NCBI GenBank assembly: GCA_021159005.1 | Contig: JAGGSN010000229.1 | Location: 1 to 34,758 of the forward strand | DNA from: Candidatus Zixiibacteriota bacterium | GTDB taxonomy: Bacteria > Zixibacteria > MSB-5A5 > UBA10806 > 4484-95 | DNA: 34,758 nt | Reading direction: 5' to 3' | Shown here: piece by piece, positions 1 to 28,810 of the stretch | Layout of the letters: the number at the start of each line of letters is the position of its first letter | Position numbering within the stretch: position 1 is the first letter of the stretch | Translations under genes and position numbers: made by a program | The notes under the pieces: generated by a model | What the model saw: the letters and a program-made list of their open reading frames with translations, nothing else | What the model was told of the DNA's origin: nothing | Database searches by the model: none

Positions 1-1540
1 AAGTAGTATCCCAGACTAACGGCATATAGTATTCATCAATCGCCTTGATGTAGGGGTTTATATCGTAATATACAGCATCATACATACCAGGTACAGTGTC
101 CCCGTTTATATCAATAATACCAGTATTACCCATATGACTTTCTGTACTATCATATGCTGTATCGAGCTTCCAGAAAAGCAATCCCTTGGGCTGATAACAC
201 AAACCGATAAACGTTATACAACGAATTTCAGATCTTGTCGGCTTACGTCGTTGTTCACCATAGGCGCAACCATCGTAACTTTCATCACAAAACCAGTACT
301 GCGGTGTATACATCCAGCCTTCAGTCGTCGAACTATAATCAGTTAATACGGCCCTTATTGAATCACATGATGATGCTAATTTATCATTAAAATCAAATTG
401 CAGACCATTACCAGTATTGCCGGTGTATTCAGTCTCAATATCTATAGGATAAATGTATACCCAAAAGATTTTCGGATGCGCCAACCTTACCAGTTCTCTA
501 TAGAGCCTGTTGACCCAACCGAAATTAATCCAGCTGGCGCCATACGCCGGGTTATCCCATTCATAAAGTGTCATCGCTGAATCAATCAGATTATTGATAT
601 ACCCGAATGATCGATAATTTGTAGTACTCTGGGTATCTTTCAAAAACCAACCCAATACACTATCCTTGTATGCCGGACGATTGCCTGTCGAGTCTATAAT
701 TTCGGAGTCTCGATCACCAGCGAAAAGTTCTGCTGCATATTGGTCATAAACCTTAAAATAATCGACGAAGACGGTGCAGTTGCCGGTTGTCTCAAACTTA
801 AAATAAAACCAGCCGCCCTTAGAAGAATTATCATCAAATACCCAGAAGTAGTTTTGGTTAAACGTTGAAGAAGAAGAATCATCATTGGTTAATTCAAGAA
901 TGGTATCACGAAACACAGACGTATGGGGCAGTTCATAAACCTTAACCGTATCAACAAACTTAAGCGTATCAGGATGTTTTATTATGCTGAATATCCCAAC
1001 CACATCAGTTGTGTCATTCCAGGTAGAATCTATGCCGAGTTTGAGAATAGGATAGAAATCGAATCTGCGATAAAACCAACTATACTTATTATGAAGCCCA
1101 AGCTCCAAACCGTTTAACATCGTCCCGCTGCCGCCATAATAAGTATCACCTTCAGCATCTACAAGCTCAATATCATCGCCAAGGGCAGTCGTAAACTTGG
1201 TTTTATAATATTGACTGCTGTCAGGTTCGGGATGCGTGATTACATAATGAGTATTGGTATACATCATCTGAGGATTTGCCGTATCACTACCAGTATTCCA
1301 AGGATAAGGATATATCCCTTTAGAAATAAATCTGCTTTTGGCTGTATGATTAAAACCGCCGCACATATGTTGGTTGAAACCGAGTGATAAATACATGCTG
1401 TCCAATAGTTCATCGGTAAAATAACTGCTTGTGCTTGCCCAATGCGATGAGTAAGCCCCAAACGGCATCTCCGTCGAATCAATTAATTGAGCAGACGCTA
1501 ACAATGGTAAAAATATTATCAATATTATCTTTTTTAACAT
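1..1540 (-). CDS. Secreted TIM-barrel-like (glycoside hydrolase-like) protein, C-terminus outside window
   Basis: This open frame of 513 codons starts at ATG 1540 behind a strong AAAGGAGGT ribosome binding site and runs off the left edge. Residues 1-18 (MLKKIILIIFLPLLASA) form a signal peptide. The rest is a diverged paralogue of the gene at 3262-5289: both share 'PFGAYSSH/PWGAYSTH' near the start, a beta-sandwich-like insertion ending in 'DYFKVYD/DWFKVRD', and 'CITFIGLC/CNTFIGLC' followed by 'GLLFWK/GVLYWK'. Where the paralogue has 'GWYLRDEP', this one reads 'GWFLKDTQ' (residues 297-304), so the Glu expected as a catalytic acid in a clan-A-like barrel is missing. It is the last visible gene of a four-gene operon, 17 bp behind a beta-helix gene. 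A glycoside hydrolase-like fold is inferred from motif style; substrate unknown. Confidence 0.7.
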   Translation of the reverse strand, partial: MLKKIILIIFLPLLASAQLIDSTEMPFGAYSSHWASTSSYFTDELLDSMYLSLGFNQHMCGGFNHTAKSRFISKGIYPYPWNTGSDTANPQMMYTNTHYVITHPEPDSSQYYKTKFTTALGDDIELVDAEGDTYYGGSGTMLNGLELGLHNKYSWFYRRFDFYPILKLGIDSTWNDTTDVVGIFSIIKHPDTLKFVDTVKVYELPHTSVFRDTILELTNDDSSSSTFNQNYFWVFDDNSSKGGWFYFKFETTGNCTVFVDYFKVYDQYAAELFAGDRDSEIIDSTGNRPAYKDSVLGWFLKDTQSTTNYRSFGYINNLIDSAMTLYEWDNPAYGASWINFGWVNRLYRELVRLAHPKIFWVYIYPIDIETEYTGNTGNGLQFDFNDKLASSCDSIRAVLTDYSSTTEGWMYTPQYWFCDESYDGCAYGEQRRKPTRSEIRCITFIGLCYQPKGLLFWKLDTAYDSTESHMGNTGIIDINGDTVPGMYDAVYYDINPYIKAIDEYYMPLVWDTT

Positions 1541-1557
1541 TCCTTTACCTCCTTTGA

Positions 1558-3237
1558 TTACTTGATTAAGACTAACTTTTTGGGTTTACCTGAAAGCTCC
1601 AAACTCCATTGAGATATTTTCGCAAAATATACCCCCGATGAGCATTCAGAACCATAATCATCCCTGCCATCCCAGATGACGTTGTGTTCTCCTATATCCC
1701 TCCTTTCATCTAACAATGTTCTAACCTTTCGCCCCGTAATATCATATATGCTTATCTTTATCTCTGCCGGTATAGGTCCAAGATTGGCGACTGAATAGAC
1801 TATAGTCGTAGATGTATTAAACGGATTCGGGTAATTTGTTTTGATTGATGTAATCCGAGGTAAGGCCGCACCTGATTGATTCCAAATATCGGTTAAAGCT
1901 ATCTCGAGTTCTTCTGAGTAATCCGATATATTATCCTGGTTATCAACTGATGCGATACGGTAGTAGTAATTATGTTCGTTATCAACATCGGTATCGATAT
2001 AATATGATGTCTCAGGCTCAGCTATTTGATTAAATACGGATGGCTCAAAACCAGAGATTGTGTCTTTATATAAAAGATAACCGCGGAAATCAGCTTCGGT
2101 ATTGAAACGCCAGTTTATATAGACTGTATCCTGATTATATTGCCCTGAAATACTATCCGGCACCGCTGGAGGTAGATCAAGATACTCATACGATTCTCCA
2201 TAAATTCCACCATAAGCGCCAATATCAGATCTTGATCCATCCGTATCTAAATAGGTTGGATCGCCTGCATCTATAAGGGGGGAGAAAGCTTGCAAATGAA
2301 CATCTTCATCCGAGACATACAAAGGGTTACAGGATACATTGCCAATTGAATCAAAATCAAACTCCCAAGTTTCTATATCCACTTGATTATTATAAAAATT
2401 GTTGAATTTTATAACACTACCTGAATCATACAATTCAACACCTTTTCCACAATTAGATATAGAGTTGTTGAATAATGTGTCATTCAAGGTTGCGTTTATT
2501 CCATTCTGCCATAAATTCTTAGTTACATTATTATATCTAATGCTATTTGAAGTAGTTATACCATTTCTACCGCCAATTATTACATTATTTCTTATTATAT
2601 TACCACCTTCAATTGCATTGATATCTCCTCCGGGGATAATGATATTATTCTGAATAATCGAAGAACTGCTGTAGATAAAAAGTGCCCAATTTCCAGTTGT
2701 GTTTAGAATAAGATTATTACTGATAAGAAAATTACCGCTAAAATCAAATATATCAACTGCTTTGTCACAACTATCGAAAACGCAATTAACCACCTCTGAA
2801 GTACCCCCTTTTACAGATGCTCCCCAATGTGAATTGATAAACTTACAATTCCTGATTGACGCGCTTGCCCCGCCACTCATTTCTATTGAACGCCAATCGG
2901 GATGTCGAAATAAAATATTTTCAACTGAACAATTATCACCTAATCTAATTGCCGGTAAATGATAAGCATCGGTATACCAAAAAGTGCTATCCCAACCCAG
3001 ACCGACTACAGCGATAGAATCATAGAACTCCATAATAGCAACTTCATACCATTCCCCCGCGCCTATATACAGCGTATCATGCGGGTTGGTAGCGTCTATG
3101 GCATCCTGTATCAGGTGGGCGCCGGTCTCCCAGCTGGTGTAGGGGGGCTCGTCCGAGCCGTCATGGCTGGCGTAGTGGTAGTCGGCGTTGGCTATGCCGG
3201 TCGTTAATAGTAGCGTTATTATTATAATTGCTTTCAT
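1558..3237 (-). CDS. Secreted right-handed parallel beta-helix protein with FN3-like and FlgD-like C-terminal domains
   Basis: 559 residues. A signal peptide (residues 1-18) precedes the module 'YASHDGSDEPPYTSWETG', and residues of about 50-330 are Asn/Ile-rich repeats of the parallel beta-helix type ('NNLIL', 'NNIII', 'NNVII'), ending in 'LQAFSPLIDAGDP' and 'SDIGAYGG', typical of secreted pectate-lyase-like or choice-of-anchor proteins. An FN3-like domain (about 355-455) and a FlgD-like Ig domain (about 465-559) with 'NYPNPFN', 'YDITGRKVRTL' and 'SSGVYFAKI' follow. Such C-termini act as sorting or attachment modules in FCB-type bacteria, so the protein is probably displayed on the surface or secreted; the sugar ligand or enzyme activity cannot be read. 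It lies 24 bp behind the TIM-barrel-like gene and is a paralogue of 5300-7087. Confidence 0.85.
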   Translation of the reverse strand: MKAIIIITLLLTTGIANADYHYASHDGSDEPPYTSWETGAHLIQDAIDATNPHDTLYIGAGEWYEVAIMEFYDSIAVVGLGWDSTFWYTDAYHLPAIRLGDNCSVENILFRHPDWRSIEMSGGASASIRNCKFINSHWGASVKGGTSEVVNCVFDSCDKAVDIFDFSGNFLISNNLILNTTGNWALFIYSSSSIIQNNIIIPGGDINAIEGGNIIRNNVIIGGRNGITTSNSIRYNNVTKNLWQNGINATLNDTLFNNSISNCGKGVELYDSGSVIKFNNFYNNQVDIETWEFDFDSIGNVSCNPLYVSDEDVHLQAFSPLIDAGDPTYLDTDGSRSDIGAYGGIYGESYEYLDLPPAVPDSISGQYNQDTVYINWRFNTEADFRGYLLYKDTISGFEPSVFNQIAEPETSYYIDTDVDNEHNYYYRIASVDNQDNISDYSEELEIALTDIWNQSGAALPRITSIKTNYPNPFNTSTTIVYSVANLGPIPAEIKISIYDITGRKVRTLLDERRDIGEHNVIWDGRDDYGSECSSGVYFAKISQWSLELSGKPKKLVLIK

Positions 3238-3261
3238 ACATTTAATCCCTGCTAAAGATTA

Positions 3262-5289
3262 TTACTTCTTCTTATTAAAATATAATACATTATCATTATT
3301 TCCCAAGTCCATATTATCAGCCTCTGCTATTTTAAACAACCGCCCTTCGCCAGCCTTAAGCACAGTAGTGAAGTATAGCTTATCATCATATAAACTTGTA
3401 TAGGTAGTCTCTGAAACAGCTGCCCAATCTGTGGTAATTGAATCTGCAATATCAATAACCAGCAACCGCTCTGCGTTATTAAAAAATGAGCGGTTAATCT
3501 CCACAATGGCGGTTACATCAGGGGCAAGAGTTACGCTGTCGATATTGCAGGCGCGGTTGACCAGCATGAAATATTTATCGCCATTCTTGGTAAAATCACC
3601 CATATGAAACCAGCCAAGGTCGGGATTGGTTGTGTCGGAATAACCTCTAACCGATTTTACTATCTTGTTAGAAAATGTTTGTGATGAGGATGAACAGTAA
3701 TAAGTACCCTGCCATTCGAGTTCTCTTAACAACTTTCCTGTCGCGTTGATGTAGGGTGCCATATCTTCCACTGCATGCCACATATCCGTCTTATTGTCAA
3801 CTGTCCCCGTATCAAGCAAACCGACAGAATATAAAACAGTATCTCGATACCAAGGATGATATTTCCAATATAATACACCTTTTGCATTGTTGCACAAACC
3901 TATAAATGTATTGCAGGACAGTTCCGATTTTGTTACCGGTCGCCACCACCATTCGTCCTCAGACCAATTTGTTTCAGAATCGTCAAGATACATATAGCCA
4001 AATGCTTGAGGAACTATCCACCATTCTTCGCAATTATCATCTTCTATGCAAGCTGCGTTTACCAAACTTTCCACTTCTGCATTAAAGTAATGCGCAAATT
4101 GTTGACCGCGATGTTCAATATATCCACTTGTATCTCTATATTTACCTCCGGTGTATTCTGTATAATAAGTTTTATTAGTACCTCCAACAACGTACTGACC
4201 GCCATGGAAACCATATTTATCCAACCATACTACTTCCGGTTGGGATATCTTTAAGAAATCCTTAATCATCTGCTGGGGTGAACCAACCGTATCACTAGTT
4301 AAAAATATAGTTACAGCTCGCTGAGTCTGTGAAGTATATTGAAATAGGCTGTCGTAATGACGATATGCCCGATAATGCTCATATACCGGCTCATCGCGAA
4401 GATACCAGCCGGCGACATAGCTCTCCGCCCAGGCCGAACCTGCCATGTCTAAGATTTTATCATCAAATTCATGATTTTCAATTAGTCTTTCACCTCTATC
4501 ATCACGAACCTTAAACCAATCCAGATAAAATGTAATAGTGCTATCCCTGGACTTAATTTTAAAATTTGTTTTGCCATAAGGATCTCCGGCAATAATATCT
4601 CGTCGATAAGGATCAAAATAAATAACTATTGCGGTATCAACATATCCACCCTGACCATCGGAAAACATTCCGGCAGTTATTGGATATACTAAGTAAATAT
4701 TTGTATCAGGATCAGGTTCAGCATCAGCAATTATAACCTTGTAATCAGCAATTGTATCTTCAGGTTCAGGAACATTAGCAGTATCAATTTCAATCATTAT
4801 TCGCCAGGCGCTTTTGTAATATATTGAATTTTCTTGATGAAAAGCCAAACCATAAACAATATGGTCATCATTGGAATCGCCTTGATGTACCCAATAATCA
4901 CCTTCTTGATGACCATCATGATAAGTAAACCTCACTTCAGATTCTATATCCTCCGCCTCAATCTGTACATATCGAGCATCACAGTATTTTAAAATATTAT
5001 TTGAATATCCACTGCTATCACTTAAATATCTCCCGGGAAACACTTTCATGCCATCGTCATGATTCTCCTCAATTTTTTCACAAATTCTATTGCTATCATC
5101 ATCAGCGTGTATGTTAAGATAAATTACATTGAAGCCAAGAATATCCCTCAATGTATCCCTTTCGGCTAAATCTCGATGTGTTGAATATGCCCCCCAGGGA
5201 AATACCGTATCGGGAAGATCATCTGCAAAAGCAATACTTGAAAAAACAGTAAGTATTATCAAGATAATACTAAATATTAAGGTTTTCAC
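3262..5289 (-). CDS. Secreted TIM-barrel-like (glycoside hydrolase-like) protein with inserted carbohydrate-binding-like domain
   Basis: 675 residues starting with a signal peptide (residues 1-22). The N-terminal 'FPWGAYSTHRD' begins a barrel-like region that is interrupted at about 105-262 by a beta-rich segment ending 'YLDWFKVRDDRGERL', the usual finish of a jelly-roll carbohydrate-binding module. The barrel resumes with 'GWYLRDEP' (294-301), where Glu300 is a candidate catalytic acid, and 'CNTFIGLCNNAKGVLYWKYH'. A C-terminal beta-sandwich ends 'LKAGEGRLFKI', as in many glycosidases. There is no FlgD-like sorting domain. The gene sits 10 bp behind the beta-helix gene 5300-7087 and 24 bp ahead of the next one, so all are co-transcribed. 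I infer action on an external polysaccharide; the family could not be named. Confidence 0.75.
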   Translation of the reverse strand: MKTLIFSIILIILTVFSSIAFADDLPDTVFPWGAYSTHRDLAERDTLRDILGFNVIYLNIHADDDSNRICEKIEENHDDGMKVFPGRYLSDSSGYSNNILKYCDARYVQIEAEDIESEVRFTYHDGHQEGDYWVHQGDSNDDHIVYGLAFHQENSIYYKSAWRIMIEIDTANVPEPEDTIADYKVIIADAEPDPDTNIYLVYPITAGMFSDGQGGYVDTAIVIYFDPYRRDIIAGDPYGKTNFKIKSRDSTITFYLDWFKVRDDRGERLIENHEFDDKILDMAGSAWAESYVAGWYLRDEPVYEHYRAYRHYDSLFQYTSQTQRAVTIFLTSDTVGSPQQMIKDFLKISQPEVVWLDKYGFHGGQYVVGGTNKTYYTEYTGGKYRDTSGYIEHRGQQFAHYFNAEVESLVNAACIEDDNCEEWWIVPQAFGYMYLDDSETNWSEDEWWWRPVTKSELSCNTFIGLCNNAKGVLYWKYHPWYRDTVLYSVGLLDTGTVDNKTDMWHAVEDMAPYINATGKLLRELEWQGTYYCSSSSQTFSNKIVKSVRGYSDTTNPDLGWFHMGDFTKNGDKYFMLVNRACNIDSVTLAPDVTAIVEINRSFFNNAERLLVIDIADSITTDWAAVSETTYTSLYDDKLYFTTVLKAGEGRLFKIAEADNMDLGNNDNVLYFNKKK

Positions 5290-5299
5290 AAACCCTCCT

Positions 5300-7087
5300 T
5301 TACTTTACTAATAATAGCTTCCTTTTCGATGACAACCGCCGCTCATTCCATTGGCTGATAGATGCAAAATATAAGCCTGAGGGAAGAGCATTGCCGTTAT
5401 CATCCTTACCATCCCAAATTATCTTATGACTTCCAACCTCCTTTCTTGCATCGAATAACAATCTCACCTTGCGGCCTAAGATATCATAGATATCGATATT
5501 TATCTGAGCCGGTATCGGACCGATATTACCGACATAATAAACAATGGTAGTCTGCGAATTAAAAGGATTGGGATAGTTGCTGGTGATAGCTGTAAACTCG
5601 GGCCTCTCAACTCCCGGCATATCCCATATCGAAACAAGGTTAATCTCCAGTTCCTCTGAATAATCTGAGATATTATCCTGATTATCAATCGAGGCTATCC
5701 GGTAATAATAATCTTGATCCGTCGTCCAATCGGAATCTAAATAATATGATGTGTCAAGCTCGGCAATAAGGTTAAACTCCGATGGCTCAAAGCCTGAATA
5801 AGTGTCGCGATATAATTCATAGCGATTGAAATCAGCTTCACCAATAAAACGCCAGATAAGATTAATGGTTGAGTCGTCAAGATCTATATTAGCCGACAGG
5901 CTGTCGGGAGTATGGGGCGGTAAGTCGAGATAAGTATAAGATTCACCTCCCTGTCCGCCATAACAGCCTAAATCAGAGCGAGTCCCGTCAACATCAAGGA
6001 TGTTTGGATCGCCGGCATCTATAAGCGGGGAGAAGGCTTGAAGATGATAATCATCACCCTGATTGTTAAACATTGGATATTTATGAATAAAACCATAGGT
6101 CGTATCTATAAAGTTAGGTAAGCCAAGTATTCGAAAACTATGTTCTGTTCCCCAGATATTGTTATAATTCGCATATAATGTCTGGTTGGACCCAAAAAGA
6201 CCGATGCCTGCAACTTCACCACCGGTTAAGGCATTATTTAAAACAGTGAGTATTGCGTTATCTCCTTCTAAATCTATGGCTACATCAACTTCCCAATATG
6301 TATGGGCATAAATTGTATCTATGGTATTGTTTACAATTATTGAATTTTCACCTGAAGGCGATATTATTATTCCGTTACCACTTACATAGCTTAATATAAG
6401 ATTATTGGCGATATAGTCATATTCTGAAAGTTCATCTATAGCGCAAATTTCAACAGCATGCCATGCACCTTGACTTTTAGCAATATTATTTATTATAATA
6501 TTCGTATCAGCCAAAGAATGTATAGGCGCATCATCAAAAGTCTGAATGATGCAATTAGAAACATACAAATATGTGTCACCGAAACCATTATGCACAGTTG
6601 ATTGCTCACCGTTAAAGATGCAATTTTGCACAAATGTTCTAGTAGCACCAAAAACACCGCCGCCTTCAAACCTGCAATTGTAAACATATAATTCGCGATA
6701 AATACCGCCATAGATAGCATTGCTAAAGTTGCCGGTATGCTCGATAAAAAGATCTACGATAGTAGTTATAGAGTCGCAGCTTATCACCGAACGCGGGAAC
6801 TCATCATACCACACTCGCGAGGAGTCCATCCCCATACCGATAAGCGCCAATGAATCATCATGCAGGAAAATGCGCCCATAGTAATCTCCGGCGCCTACAT
6901 ATATCGTATCGCCACGGCTGGCGGCATCGGCGGCATCCTGCACCACATGCGCCGCTGTCTCCCAGCTGGTGTAGGGGGGCTCATCCGAGCCGTCATGGCT
7001 GGCGTAGTGGTAGTCGGCGTAGGCGGCAGTGGCTGTTATAAGCATTACACCGATTAGCATGAATATTTTGATGATTCTATTCATCAT
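5300..7087 (-). CDS. Secreted right-handed parallel beta-helix protein with FN3-like and FlgD-like C-terminal domains (first gene of operon)
   Basis: 595 residues with a signal peptide (about 1-24, 'MLITATAAYA') and the module 'YASHDGSDEPPYTSWETA'. A beta-helix region (about 60-360) of 'NNIA', 'NNLIL', 'NNTI' turns ends with 'LQAFSPLIDAGDP' and 'SDLGCYGG'; an FN3-like domain (about 385-485) and a FlgD-like domain with 'NYPNPFN', 'YDILGRKVRLLF' and 'PSGLYFASI' follow. It is the paralogue of 1558-3237 and heads the four-gene operon. The start is a double ATG preceded by GGGAG at 8-nt spacing. The protein is probably exported and surface-anchored through its C-terminal domain, with a binding or lyase role that the sequence alone does not settle. 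Confidence 0.85.
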   Translation of the reverse strand: MMNRIIKIFMLIGVMLITATAAYADYHYASHDGSDEPPYTSWETAAHVVQDAADAASRGDTIYVGAGDYYGRIFLHDDSLALIGMGMDSSRVWYDEFPRSVISCDSITTIVDLFIEHTGNFSNAIYGGIYRELYVYNCRFEGGGVFGATRTFVQNCIFNGEQSTVHNGFGDTYLYVSNCIIQTFDDAPIHSLADTNIIINNIAKSQGAWHAVEICAIDELSEYDYIANNLILSYVSGNGIIISPSGENSIIVNNTIDTIYAHTYWEVDVAIDLEGDNAILTVLNNALTGGEVAGIGLFGSNQTLYANYNNIWGTEHSFRILGLPNFIDTTYGFIHKYPMFNNQGDDYHLQAFSPLIDAGDPNILDVDGTRSDLGCYGGQGGESYTYLDLPPHTPDSLSANIDLDDSTINLIWRFIGEADFNRYELYRDTYSGFEPSEFNLIAELDTSYYLDSDWTTDQDYYYRIASIDNQDNISDYSEELEINLVSIWDMPGVERPEFTAITSNYPNPFNSQTTIVYYVGNIGPIPAQINIDIYDILGRKVRLLFDARKEVGSHKIIWDGKDDNGNALPSGLYFASISQWNERRLSSKRKLLLVK

Positions 7088-19728: not shown

Positions 19729-22014
19729 TTACTTTGCTTGATAAAGCGGAATTGTAATGCTATCGCCCTGGATAGTGTCGCAAGCTGGCCAGCCCTCGGG
19801 AGCCTCCAAGGGAATATCGTTTTCTAATATCCACTTTGGAATATAATTCGGGCAATAAACAACCGTACTTATGCCTTTAAAATAATTAATAAGCCTGGTA
19901 ACATCACTGCCAATAACGCTGCAGTCCCCGTTAACATCAGCGGAAACCCAGAAATCGTCTATCAGGCACGGTATAGAACTATCATAACCCCTGATTTTGT
20001 TAACAAGGTAAATAACATCACTGCCAATAACTGTTGGCGGCCAGCAGCCCAGATACATATTAACATCACCGACTAAATATGAGTATCTGTTTAAAACAGC
20101 GTTTTGAGTAGTAATATCACCCGGTGTGACTTCAATATTCTCCAATAGAGTATCCCTGTAGCCGAGACATGAATAGGAAATGTTATAAACGCCATAATCA
20201 AGATTGCCGAGCAAGTATTCGCCATCCTCATCGGTAATATCATAAATATCAGTCCCTTCAGCTGCAACATGAACTCCTTCTATTATACCCAATGTGTCAT
20301 TGGCAACCACACCCGCAATACTGCCGGGCAGCAACACCATTATAACATTCAAATACGTAGTATCATTAGAATTGCATTCAATGCCGCTGACAGTAGTGTC
20401 TCGATAATCCGGATGAGAATAAATGATGCCATACTCGCCTCGATCGAGACTATCAATAATATATTCGCCATCTGCATCAGTTGTATCATAAAAAGATGTA
20501 CGCTGCACATACACATAGACGCTATCTAAGGGGTTAGAATCCTGTTTTGTTACAAGTCCCATAATTACGCCGGGGTCAGCTAATTCAATATTCAGATTGA
20601 TTGCCGTATCAGCGGGTATATCTATTAGGGCGGTTAAAGTATCAGAATAATAAGGATGCGTAAACGATATGTGATACCTGCCCGAATTCAGCGAATCCAA
20701 TATATATCCGCCGAGGTTATTGGTGGTGTCGCTATAAGTAGTGAATTTTATAGATACATAAACATCGCTAACGGGCATAGAATAGCTATTAGCAACTATG
20801 CCTGTAAGGGTTCCCGGATTGCTCATTGCTACATCCAACGATGTTGTGCTGTCGGCAAACACTTCAACTTCAAATATCGATGTATCCGAATAATACGGAT
20901 GAGAAAAGTAAACTCTGTAGCTGCCAAGGCATGGATGTTCCAAGGAATACTCGCCATTAATATCGGTGCTGTCGCCGAAATCGGGATTCCGAGTATATAC
21001 ATAAACACCTTCAATCGGTTCGGCTTCATCATTGGTTATGGTTCCGGCTATCGATGGCAAATACTCGCCGATATCTATAACCTCGGGCGCATAGCTGTCT
21101 CTTAGAATTACCATCTCATAGTCGCTGACAGTTTGCCAGTTGTCCTGGCAGCGGGTTGGATACATCGAAGCCAGCGCCGTGTAGCCGTTCGGGGATTCAT
21201 CGAGATAATAAAGAGAACGCGCCATGCAAAACGACCATATATCATAACCATCACTTAAGATGAAATTCAAAGCCTCATCCGAACTGATTTCCTGCAATTC
21301 AACCAATGCCGCCGTGATGCCTCCGGCAGCATCCCAATTGTTTTCCTCGATATTTTTCAGAAGATATAGGAAATAGAGTTCCGAATCGATTACCATTGAT
21401 GTATCAGATGGATCGCATTCCGGGATATCGGAACCGGTAAGAGGGTTATTATGAAGATAGACGCTTCCTACCAAGTCATATAAAAGCGATTTGCTGATAG
21501 TGCCGTTATGTTCAAATAGCCAGTATTTATCGTCTTTAAATCTGATAAACGGATGAGGGTCCGGGATGCTGTCGCTGCCATGAGCGCAGCATCCGGCCGA
21601 ACAATTGCGAACATGGGCTAAGGCAATATCAGGCTTGGCATTTTCAATCTGAACTGTTAACGTATCGAAAACGGGATCGTTAAACGCTCGCATCGCGCCT
21701 CTCTGAATAACTGCCGCCTCGCCAAAATCATCATAATAGGCGATACCCCAGCCATCAATATTTTTAACCTCGGCAAGATTTTTCAATGAGTTATCATAAC
21801 CGACAAGATGATTATAAATTACGCTATCCGGCATGTTATCGGAGATGACAGCCCACATTCGGCAGTTATGGTCTTGGCTATACTCATCCGCAGTTGGTTC
21901 TATGCGAGGTTGTTGATTGGAATTATGCCTGTCATGATAGGCAATATCAGTTCGGACCAAATAAGCAATTACCAGCAGTCCGGTTATGGCTATAAGAATA
22001 TTTATCTTTCTCAT
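19729..22014 (-). CDS. Exported class II glutamine amidotransferase-fold protein with four CarboxypepD_reg-like repeats and a dockerin-like tail
   Basis: 761 residues. An N-terminal hydrophobic helix (about 5-20) is followed by a class II (Ntn) amidotransferase domain of the GATase_4/YafJ type, about residues 51-300: Cys51 in 'NCRMWAVIS', 'DGWG' (87-90), 'AHVR' (133-136), 'HPF' (154-156) and 'HNG' (169-171), in family order. Four repeats of about 78 residues follow (about 315-635), each with 'GVYVYTRNP', 'DINGEYSL' and 'YSDT'-like segments, resembling CarboxypepD_reg beta-sandwiches. The C-terminus carries two EF-hand-like dockerin segments ('GDVNMYLGCWPPTVIGSDVI', 'DVNGDCSVIGSDVTRLINYF'). 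The catalytic Cys is internal, so it needs cleavage to become the N-terminal nucleophile. No ammonia-using partner lies nearby, so a hydrolase or amidase role outside the cytoplasm is more likely than biosynthesis. Confidence 0.82.
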   Translation of the reverse strand: MRKINILIAITGLLVIAYLVRTDIAYHDRHNSNQQPRIEPTADEYSQDHNCRMWAVISDNMPDSVIYNHLVGYDNSLKNLAEVKNIDGWGIAYYDDFGEAAVIQRGAMRAFNDPVFDTLTVQIENAKPDIALAHVRNCSAGCCAHGSDSIPDPHPFIRFKDDKYWLFEHNGTISKSLLYDLVGSVYLHNNPLTGSDIPECDPSDTSMVIDSELYFLYLLKNIEENNWDAAGGITAALVELQEISSDEALNFILSDGYDIWSFCMARSLYYLDESPNGYTALASMYPTRCQDNWQTVSDYEMVILRDSYAPEVIDIGEYLPSIAGTITNDEAEPIEGVYVYTRNPDFGDSTDINGEYSLEHPCLGSYRVYFSHPYYSDTSIFEVEVFADSTTSLDVAMSNPGTLTGIVANSYSMPVSDVYVSIKFTTYSDTTNNLGGYILDSLNSGRYHISFTHPYYSDTLTALIDIPADTAINLNIELADPGVIMGLVTKQDSNPLDSVYVYVQRTSFYDTTDADGEYIIDSLDRGEYGIIYSHPDYRDTTVSGIECNSNDTTYLNVIMVLLPGSIAGVVANDTLGIIEGVHVAAEGTDIYDITDEDGEYLLGNLDYGVYNISYSCLGYRDTLLENIEVTPGDITTQNAVLNRYSYLVGDVNMYLGCWPPTVIGSDVIYLVNKIRGYDSSIPCLIDDFWVSADVNGDCSVIGSDVTRLINYFKGISTVVYCPNYIPKWILENDIPLEAPEGWPACDTIQGDSITIPLYQAK

Positions 22015-27460: not shown

Positions 27461-28810
27461 ATGCTTAAAAAACATCTTTGGGGAGTATTAGTTATTGCAT
27501 CTTGCTTAACCCTGATTTTTATTTCGGGTTGCGGTGATGATGACACAATAACTGATCCCACCGAAACAAACACAGCTCCATCGCTAGCCTCGATTGGCTC
27601 CCAAACTACTTATGCAAATCTCGAACTAACGTTTGAAACATCCGCAAGCGATTCGGCCAGCGATACGCTTACTATGACAGCAGTTGGCTTACCAACCGGC
27701 GCAACTTATACCGATAATGAGGACGGCACCGCAGACTTTGCCTGGACACCGGACACCTCTCAGATTGGCGCAGATACAGTGATTTTCATCACCTCAGACG
27801 GCGCCTTAGCAGATTCGGAATCTGTAATTATTACAATTGAAGAGTCTGTCCAGTTGTCAGAATATAGTGATCTGGTTGAGGAAATTGCGCCGCCGCCCTA
27901 TTCAGCAGGAGGCACATTAGGCAAACTGTTTTTCGATCCCGCTATAATGGACAGCATCTGGAAGCATGGAGAACATGCCTTATTAGGAAAAGTGTTTGGC
28001 AATAGCGAATGCGACGAGCCATTTGCGCTTTATAGAAATATGATGGAACTTGATGAGTCTATTAATCAAATTAATATGGGGCTTGAGACAGGAGAGGATA
28101 CCATAGAAGTTGAAGAAGATGATGGTTATTTTCATTGCGTGGTTGAAATTGAGGAACTTACATCGCCTGTTGCTATTCCCGAGGAATGCCAGTCGGTTAT
28201 TGGATTTGAGACTATCGATATTGATTATCACCTGTCTTTTTCCGTTGTCGAGATGGAAGATGTGCAGCTTGATGCCGGTTTCAAATCAACAGACTCGGAT
28301 GAAACTGTTCTCTTTTTCAATTCTGGTGTTCACGAAGAGGAAGGTCAGTGGAATGGTTTCACAGAGTCAAACCTGTTTTGGGCAACCCGCGATTTAGTTA
28401 CCGATGCTATCGAGATCAGATGCATATTCTTTAAGGGCTTGGATGATGACAAGGTTATGTGGGGTTACGAAATTAAGACTGTCGGAACCAACGATTTTCA
28501 GTATAAGCTAACCTGGTACTCTAACGAACAGGGTGTTGAGGATGGATTTATTGGCCGCATTATAGGCGGCGGCAACAATGAAACTGAATTTATCTTAAGA
28601 TACCAGGATTTCAACATATCCGACACCTTAGACCCGAACAATGATATAATACAGATGTTTACCGGAAATTATTCCGATGCGGGCGCAGACACTATCGGCT
28701 ATGCGCAATATGTTATCGAATCCGATTATTATACCTATGACGAATTGCCGACCTCTCTTATTGATAATCCCATGGATGCCGCTGATCTTATTAATCCTTG
28801 GGGACCATAA
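27461..28810 (+). CDS. Lipoprotein with Ig-like (He_PIG-type) domain, function unknown
   Basis: 449 residues. A lipoprotein signal peptide ends in the lipobox 'ISGC' (Cys about 24), followed by an acidic linker 'GDDDTITDP'. Residues about 38-128 look like a putative Ig (He_PIG) or cadherin-like domain ('PTGATYTDNEDGTADFAWTP', 'IGADTVIFITSDGALADSES'). The remaining 320 residues are a beta-rich, acidic region with two Cys ('NSECDEP', 'YFHCVVEIEE') and no family I can name. GGAG lies 8 nt before the ATG and a strong terminator follows. It is a single-gene unit. It should sit in the inner or outer membrane by its lipid anchor. Confidence 0.82.
   Translation: MLKKHLWGVLVIASCLTLIFISGCGDDDTITDPTETNTAPSLASIGSQTTYANLELTFETSASDSASDTLTMTAVGLPTGATYTDNEDGTADFAWTPDTSQIGADTVIFITSDGALADSESVIITIEESVQLSEYSDLVEEIAPPPYSAGGTLGKLFFDPAIMDSIWKHGEHALLGKVFGNSECDEPFALYRNMMELDESINQINMGLETGEDTIEVEEDDGYFHCVVEIEELTSPVAIPEECQSVIGFETIDIDYHLSFSVVEMEDVQLDAGFKSTDSDETVLFFNSGVHEEEGQWNGFTESNLFWATRDLVTDAIEIRCIFFKGLDDDKVMWGYEIKTVGTNDFQYKLTWYSNEQGVEDGFIGRIIGGGNNETEFILRYQDFNISDTLDPNNDIIQMFTGNYSDAGADTIGYAQYVIESDYYTYDELPTSLIDNPMDAADLINPWGP

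Follow-up and report, generated by a model that had tools for sequence, protein, structure and literature searches.

A putative exported branch of class II amidotransferase-type hydrolases in Zixibacteriota, with a predicted propeptide and a dockerin-like surface tail

To our knowledge, class II glutamine amidotransferase (GATase)-type domains are regarded as cytosolic enzymes. In PurF of Bacillus subtilis the nucleophilic Cys is likewise preceded by a short propeptide, and the known exported Ntn hydrolases comprise penicillin V acylase, bile salt hydrolase and quorum-signal acylase. Two members of the wider group hydrolyse glutamyl compounds: EgtC takes off a glutamyl residue (PMC9103826), and the yeast glutathione-degrading complex Dug2p-Dug3p cleaves γ-glutamyl bonds (PMC7617739). 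This work describes a gene from a Zixibacteriota MAG that combines such a domain with an export segment and a surface-type C-terminus.

The gene lies in a window of 34,758 nt, meaning the whole stretch of DNA that was analysed, on contig JAGGSN010000229.1 of Candidatus Zixiibacteriota bacterium. The coordinates given in an initial annotation of this DNA were correct, with the gene on the minus strand (Table 1); stops occur throughout the plus strand at 19729-22014. The same annotation had described an exported, glutaminase-like enzyme of the Ntn fold, and the complete catalytic set, the GATase_4 match and the export segment bear it out. The motifs it listed (Cys51, DGWG, AHVR, HPF and HNG) are all found in the translated ORF, its N-terminal membrane helix corresponds to a hydrophobic segment behind a positively charged N-terminus, and its four beta-sandwich repeats were recovered as CarboxypepD_reg stretches. 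The EF-hand-like tail is also real, with a C-terminal match to Dockerin_1 that is sub-threshold (E=0.046).

Table 1. Parts of the gene and its predicted product, with positions in the window and residues numbered along the precursor
Feature	Position	Strand	Basis
Whole gene, 761-aa precursor	19729..22014	-	Runs from the ATG at 22014 to the stop codon at 19729
Hydrophobic export segment, residues 6-20 (signal peptide or signal anchor)	21955..21999	-	12-residue Kyte-Doolittle maximum 3.01, preceding net charge +2
Predicted variable propeptide, residues 21-50, ending His49-Asn50 (...QDHN)	21865..21954	-	All 14 exported homologues have H at -2 and N, E or S at -1; length varies
Codon of predicted N-terminal nucleophile Cys51	21862..21864	-	Invariant; cytosolic relatives that start Met-Cys have their Cys2 in this column
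Mature Ntn/GATase_4 catalytic domain, residues 51-320	21055..21864	-	Pfam PF13230, AlphaFold, Foldseek
Active-site Arg136 and cysteine loop, residues 136-158 (RNCSAGCCAHGSDSIPDPHPFIR)	21541..21609	-	Arg invariant
HNG motif, residues 169-171	21502..21510	-	Invariant in exported and cytosolic rows
DSE motif, Asp210	21379..21387	-	Asp in 13/14 exported rows; DSE of 3mdn falls at the same alignment position
Four CarboxypepD_reg beta-sandwich repeats, residues 322-638	20101..21051	-	PF13620, four stretches, E=2.2e-43
C-terminal dockerin-like double EF-hand module, residues 645-746	19777..20082	-	Module profile match, 175 bits
15-residue C-terminal extension beyond the EF-hand module	19732..19776	-	Module-to-stop distance of 0-19 residues in 24 of 26 copies read

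The class II glutamine-amidotransferase (GATase_4) Ntn domain spans residues 51-320 and has the αββα fold, in which the nucleophile opens the first strand. The domain scored 63.4 bits against GATase_4 (cut-off 23, E=2.1e-17), a Pfam family matched by the catalytic domains of 12/12 relatives, and a profile built from nine relatives matched 1te5, 3mdn and EgtC in the PDB. Structure prediction, which the initial annotation had proposed, returned the class II GATase fold: the AlphaFold model of the mature domain (pLDDT 85, pTM 0.87), whose first strand starts directly after Cys1, had EgtC with glutamine as its top Foldseek match (4zfk, E=4.8e-18). EgtC with glutamine or its natural substrate was followed by other EgtC forms, YafJ-type proteins, GlmS and PurF, and the fifty best PDB folds were all EgtC, YafJ/3mdn-type, GlmS/GFAT or PurF. 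It is therefore unlikely that the protein is instead an Ntn acylase that acts outside the cytoplasm on something other than a glutamyl compound, resembling penicillin V acylase, bile salt hydrolase or quorum-signal acylase. Although the known exported Ntn hydrolases are of such kinds, and one paralogue of the exported family lacks the amino-group-binding Asp, the 12 catalytic-domain relatives match no Pfam family beyond GATase_4 and GATase_6, and the glutamine-site residues are retained in 13/14 exported homologues.

In relatives the catalytic domain retains 42-56% identity, and a 12-row alignment contains 38 invariant columns at identities down to 38%; hence the motifs do not reflect chance resemblance. 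The Cys, His-x-Arg and HNG are invariant in 14/14 exported homologues, including the nucleophile whose loss in homologues would, according to the initial annotation, have counted against its proposal, while His-x-Arg, HPF and HNG are common to the exported proteins and their cytosolic relatives. The Arg, HNG and DSE Asp presumably correspond to the positions that, in GlmS-type enzymes, bind glutamine by its α-amino-acid head and also hold the oxyanion, with the Asn-Gly of HNG taken to be the oxyanion residues, and Asp210 to be at the position of the Asp binding the glutamine alpha-amino group in GlmS. Such conservation, persisting in homologues down to 38% identity for the nucleophile, Arg and HNG, makes it very improbable that the window encodes a degenerate, non-catalytic surface protein on an uncleaved anchor helix, despite the lack of an obvious signal-peptidase site in its leader and the long structural repeats that follow the domain. 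The one exception to the DSE Asp is found at locus L076 (G122:C28), which encodes tandem, tail-less exported GATase paralogues on the minus strand (460-1398 and 1465-2412). In the paralogue at 460-1398, this Asp is replaced by Gly, and DGWG by DGWA, which suggests a changed specificity; glutamine specificity may consequently not be universal across the exported clade.

The family was found in 12 of the 132 Zixibacteriota genomes covered by a profile search. Eleven of these genomes encode 14 exported proteins, and the twelfth (G024) has only a short cytosolic relative, starting MCRLLG. The exported proteins form a single clade in a maximum-likelihood tree (support 99/98), although the long outgroup branches call for some caution. 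The initial annotation had suggested searching for homologues of the same architecture, and it is the exported catalytic domain that recurs (14 proteins, 11 genomes), rather than the tail: some members carry the EF-hand pair, others a Por_Secre-like tail (L038/L056, L077 and L079), none at all (L076) or a giant extension (L078, a 2452-residue frame). No relatives were found in IMG/VR viral contigs, and among the matches listed from a plasmid collection there were only class II GATases at ~24-28% identity, with the four that were read starting Met-Cys.

A hydrophobic leader is present in 13/13 exported proteins with a readable N-terminus (12-mer mean 2.1-3.1), that of L037 being masked, and this recurrence speaks against the other condition that the initial annotation had named as refuting, a helix that is not a targeting signal. 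The five cytosolic relatives that were scored had Kyte-Doolittle 12-mer maxima of 0.44-1.07, and cytosolic relatives with a readable start begin Met-Cys. The distance from leader to Cys is 6-43 residues across the 13 readable exported proteins, and 14-43 residues in 12 of them. As signal peptidase normally cuts a few residues from the h-region, a second cut would be needed in these 12 proteins to free the Cys, and this would most simply be self-cleavage. The conserved H-[N/E/S]-C junction likewise leads us to infer a free N-terminal Cys51 in the mature protein. The window protein's own leader shows no clear site for signal peptidase and may stay in place as an anchor. A role for Cys51 as a lipoprotein Cys was considered and rejected, as the lipobox L-[AS]-[GA]-C is absent, H-[N/E/S] precedes the Cys, and it lies 6-43 residues past the h-region. 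Given the invariant His-x-Arg and HNG, and the DSE Asp in 13/14, the protein most likely hydrolyses glutamine or γ-glutamyl amides and becomes active once it is cleaved in front of the Cys.

The inner clade has C-x3-CC next to the active-site Arg and a Cys at mature position 150, and the outer clade has one Cys pair in the Arg-adjacent loop and L078 has none. Homologues have 0, 2, 3 or 5 Cys in the loop, with counts of 3 and 5 always accompanied by Cys200. Mature positions 94 and 97 are either both Cys or neither, the pair having been lost jointly in the window protein and L033. None of the cytosolic relatives compared has a Cys in the Arg-adjacent loop. From the alignment, this pattern fits the formation of disulfides in an oxidising, extracytoplasmic setting.

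The genomic surroundings offer no fixed partner. TldD/PmbA-type genes lie 410 bp upstream, and a TolC/RND pair 254 bp downstream, all on the same strand as the window gene. All-against-all BLASTP of the flanks, some of which are short, found no conserved neighbour beside the homologues, with sharing limited to at most pairs of loci once exported-tail similarities were set aside. The window enzyme is probably self-standing. An extracytoplasmic location, and the γ-glutamyl-type bonds present in the peptide stems of peptidoglycan, would also accommodate a periplasmic enzyme directed at γ-D-glutamyl or D-isoglutamine amides of the cell wall, and L155, a plasmid-borne relative, adjoins dpaA, which encodes a peptidoglycan meso-DAP protein amidase. 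Yet L155 belongs to a different, cytosolic subfamily, no cell-wall or other gene is conserved beside the homologues, and the window protein bears surface-type repeats and an exoproteome tail, so that a peptidoglycan substrate has a low probability.

PF13230 matches four places in the window genome: the window gene, a paralogue on contig C76 that is likewise exported, and two further frames, 618 and 462 aa long, which from their sizes alone would be GlmS and PurF. A multi-domain amidotransferase of the GlmS or PurF kind was rejected for the window gene itself, as its C-terminal part consists of CarboxypepD_reg repeats and the tail rather than a synthase, and it has no conserved neighbour. Elsewhere in the window, positions 2-7087 (minus strand) hold exported proteins in alternating pairs: those at 1558-3237 and 5300-7087 both start ...YHYASHDGSDEPPYTSWET and have FlgD_ig/Por_Secre-type tails, and those at 2-1540 and 3262-5289 have a common FGAYS/WGAYS start. 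This looks like tandem duplication of a two-gene unit.

The C-terminal module is not special to this enzyme, but belongs to a lineage-wide exoproteome. A module profile search found 63 copies in the window genome, at least 126 in a second genome (G001), 34-94 in each of the seven remaining genomes of the order, and 0-10 outside the order. It is a lineage-specific unit of 102 aa with four invariant Cys, and in many cases a stretch resembling K-x-I-I-P-x-G-x-x-K comes after it. The second of its loops has the canonical calcium-binding form of dockerins (D-x-N-x-D...D), and the first has a 5-residue insertion with Trp-Pro-Pro that is absent in several relatives from the order. Only 0-19 residues separate the module from the stop in 24 of the 26 copies read, with >420 residues following in the other two. 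In L033 (1618-3315) and L090, the module is near the N-terminus or mid-protein and is followed by Ig/cadherin-like repeats; the L033 protein is resembled by that encoded at 27461-28810 of the window (Big_9, lipoprotein-like). On this distribution, the module is a candidate sorting or anchoring tag for the exoproteome, and the most fitting reading of the tail is a module of general use in surface display or secretion. A match to SprA, the type IX secretion translocon protein, was present in 13/13 genomes checked, including the window genome.

The initial annotation had instead envisaged attachment to a cohesin-type complex, and had suggested a search for cohesin partners. Pfam did find three cohesin stretches in the window genome, two of them in one ORF, although only two pass the cut-off. 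Such docking would make the enzyme a dockerin-bearing part of a surface complex scaffolded by cohesins; it is a matter of the tail and does not conflict with the enzymatic reading. It is possible, and accords with the canonical second EF loop and the Dockerin_1 matches at E up to 0.01 in 3/12 module copies. However, 63 tails are set against three cohesin stretches, cohesin counts are similar in relatives lacking the module, and several family members have a Por_Secre-like tail or none; the cohesin proposal was consequently not sustained, and is improbable. The module has weak matches to solved dockerins, and the model of the window tail is poor (pLDDT 60). Separately, the window genome encodes an 823-aa chain (L068, G000:C146) with two cohesin-like stretches, a dockerin-like pair and a Por_Secre-like tail, and a second cohesin-like/dockerin-like ORF is found on the same contig. 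Within the literature covered, no paper was found on Zixibacteria with dockerins or type IX secretion, nor on a class II GATase joined to a dockerin.

Taken as a whole, these observations are best explained, with a probability moderately above even, by an exported, propeptide-cleaved glutaminase or γ-glutamyl amidohydrolase with a surface tail. The precursor would be inactive and exported by the Sec route, with the short, variable propeptide ending His-Asn being removed before Cys51, most likely autocatalytically, as in other Ntn hydrolases. The N-terminal Cys would then attack glutamine, or a γ-glutamyl compound, at its side-chain amide, with the α-amino-acid head gripped by the conserved Arg, Asn-Gly and Asp. 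Hydrolysis of such an amide is likely given the fold, the conserved glutamine-site residues, and the chemistry of EgtC and Dug2p-Dug3p. As the window enzyme has no synthase or acceptor domain, the glutamyl-thioester would be hydrolysed, making this an extracytoplasmic amidohydrolase with EgtC- or Dug3-like chemistry outside the cell; that it is an extracytoplasmic glutamyl-amide hydrolase seems somewhat more probable than not. Disulfides would stabilise the loop after the Arg, the four beta-sandwich repeats would act as a spacer, and the dockerin-like tail would put the enzyme in a surface or secreted location common to dozens of exported proteins.

More broadly, and with rather less than even confidence, we propose that these proteins form a separate branch of the class II amidotransferase-type hydrolases, one that is extracytoplasmic and has not been described before. 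This branch, a single clade within the phylum, would have been exported once, gaining a signal peptide, disulfides flanking the active site and a propeptide that cleaves itself at His-X|Cys, and would be displayed via a lineage-specific double EF-hand module that may serve in sorting or anchoring instead of binding cohesins as a dockerin does. The exported clade would thereby have a way to activate, outside the cell, an enzyme with an N-terminal Cys, a residue that removal of Met normally exposes. It suggests extracellular breakdown of γ-glutamyl compounds or glutamine by these uncultured bacteria, and the tail module, which each genome of the order has in at least 34 copies, is a marker for a large part of an exoproteome that is still unstudied.

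Comparison with known systems separates what is shared from what is distinctive. Firstly, EgtC (PDB 4zfj/4zfk/4zfl, TIGR03442), a γ-glutamyl amidohydrolase of ergothioneine biosynthesis, is the best structural match (TM 0.67/0.77, 21% identity), and is likewise a hydrolase without a synthase domain that has an N-terminal Cys nucleophile, Arg and HNG; however, it is cytosolic, with Cys2 after Met, and lacks the leader, cysteine loop and tail. The window protein was rejected as EgtC itself, reaching 52.3 bits against an equivalog cut-off of 218.65, and no EgtD match was found in the window genome (MAG 97% complete). Secondly, YafJ-type GATase_4 proteins (1te5, 3mdn) belong to the same Pfam family and have DGWG, H-x-R, HPF, HNG, DSE and SDG in common with it, whereas those compared start Met-Cys and have neither leader nor cysteine loop. 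Thirdly, Dug3 is a cytosolic class II GATase-type subunit that works with Dug2, and is likened here by its chemistry. Fourthly, B. subtilis PurF is of the same superfamily (fold matches 1gph and 1ao0), but is cytosolic and carries a transferase domain at its C-terminus. Penicillin V acylase and bile salt hydrolase are similarly exported Ntn Cys hydrolases, although their families have no Pfam match in the relatives and are absent from the fifty best folds. Finally, the module shares its canonical second EF-hand loop with type I dockerins (PF00404), but differs in its first-loop insertion, its four invariant Cys and the absence of a Dockerin_1 match at E 0.01 from most copies. The enzyme domain falls in a fold family that is already known, and is set apart within it by being exported, by the junction with its predicted propeptide, by the arrangement of its cysteines and by the tail of surface type.
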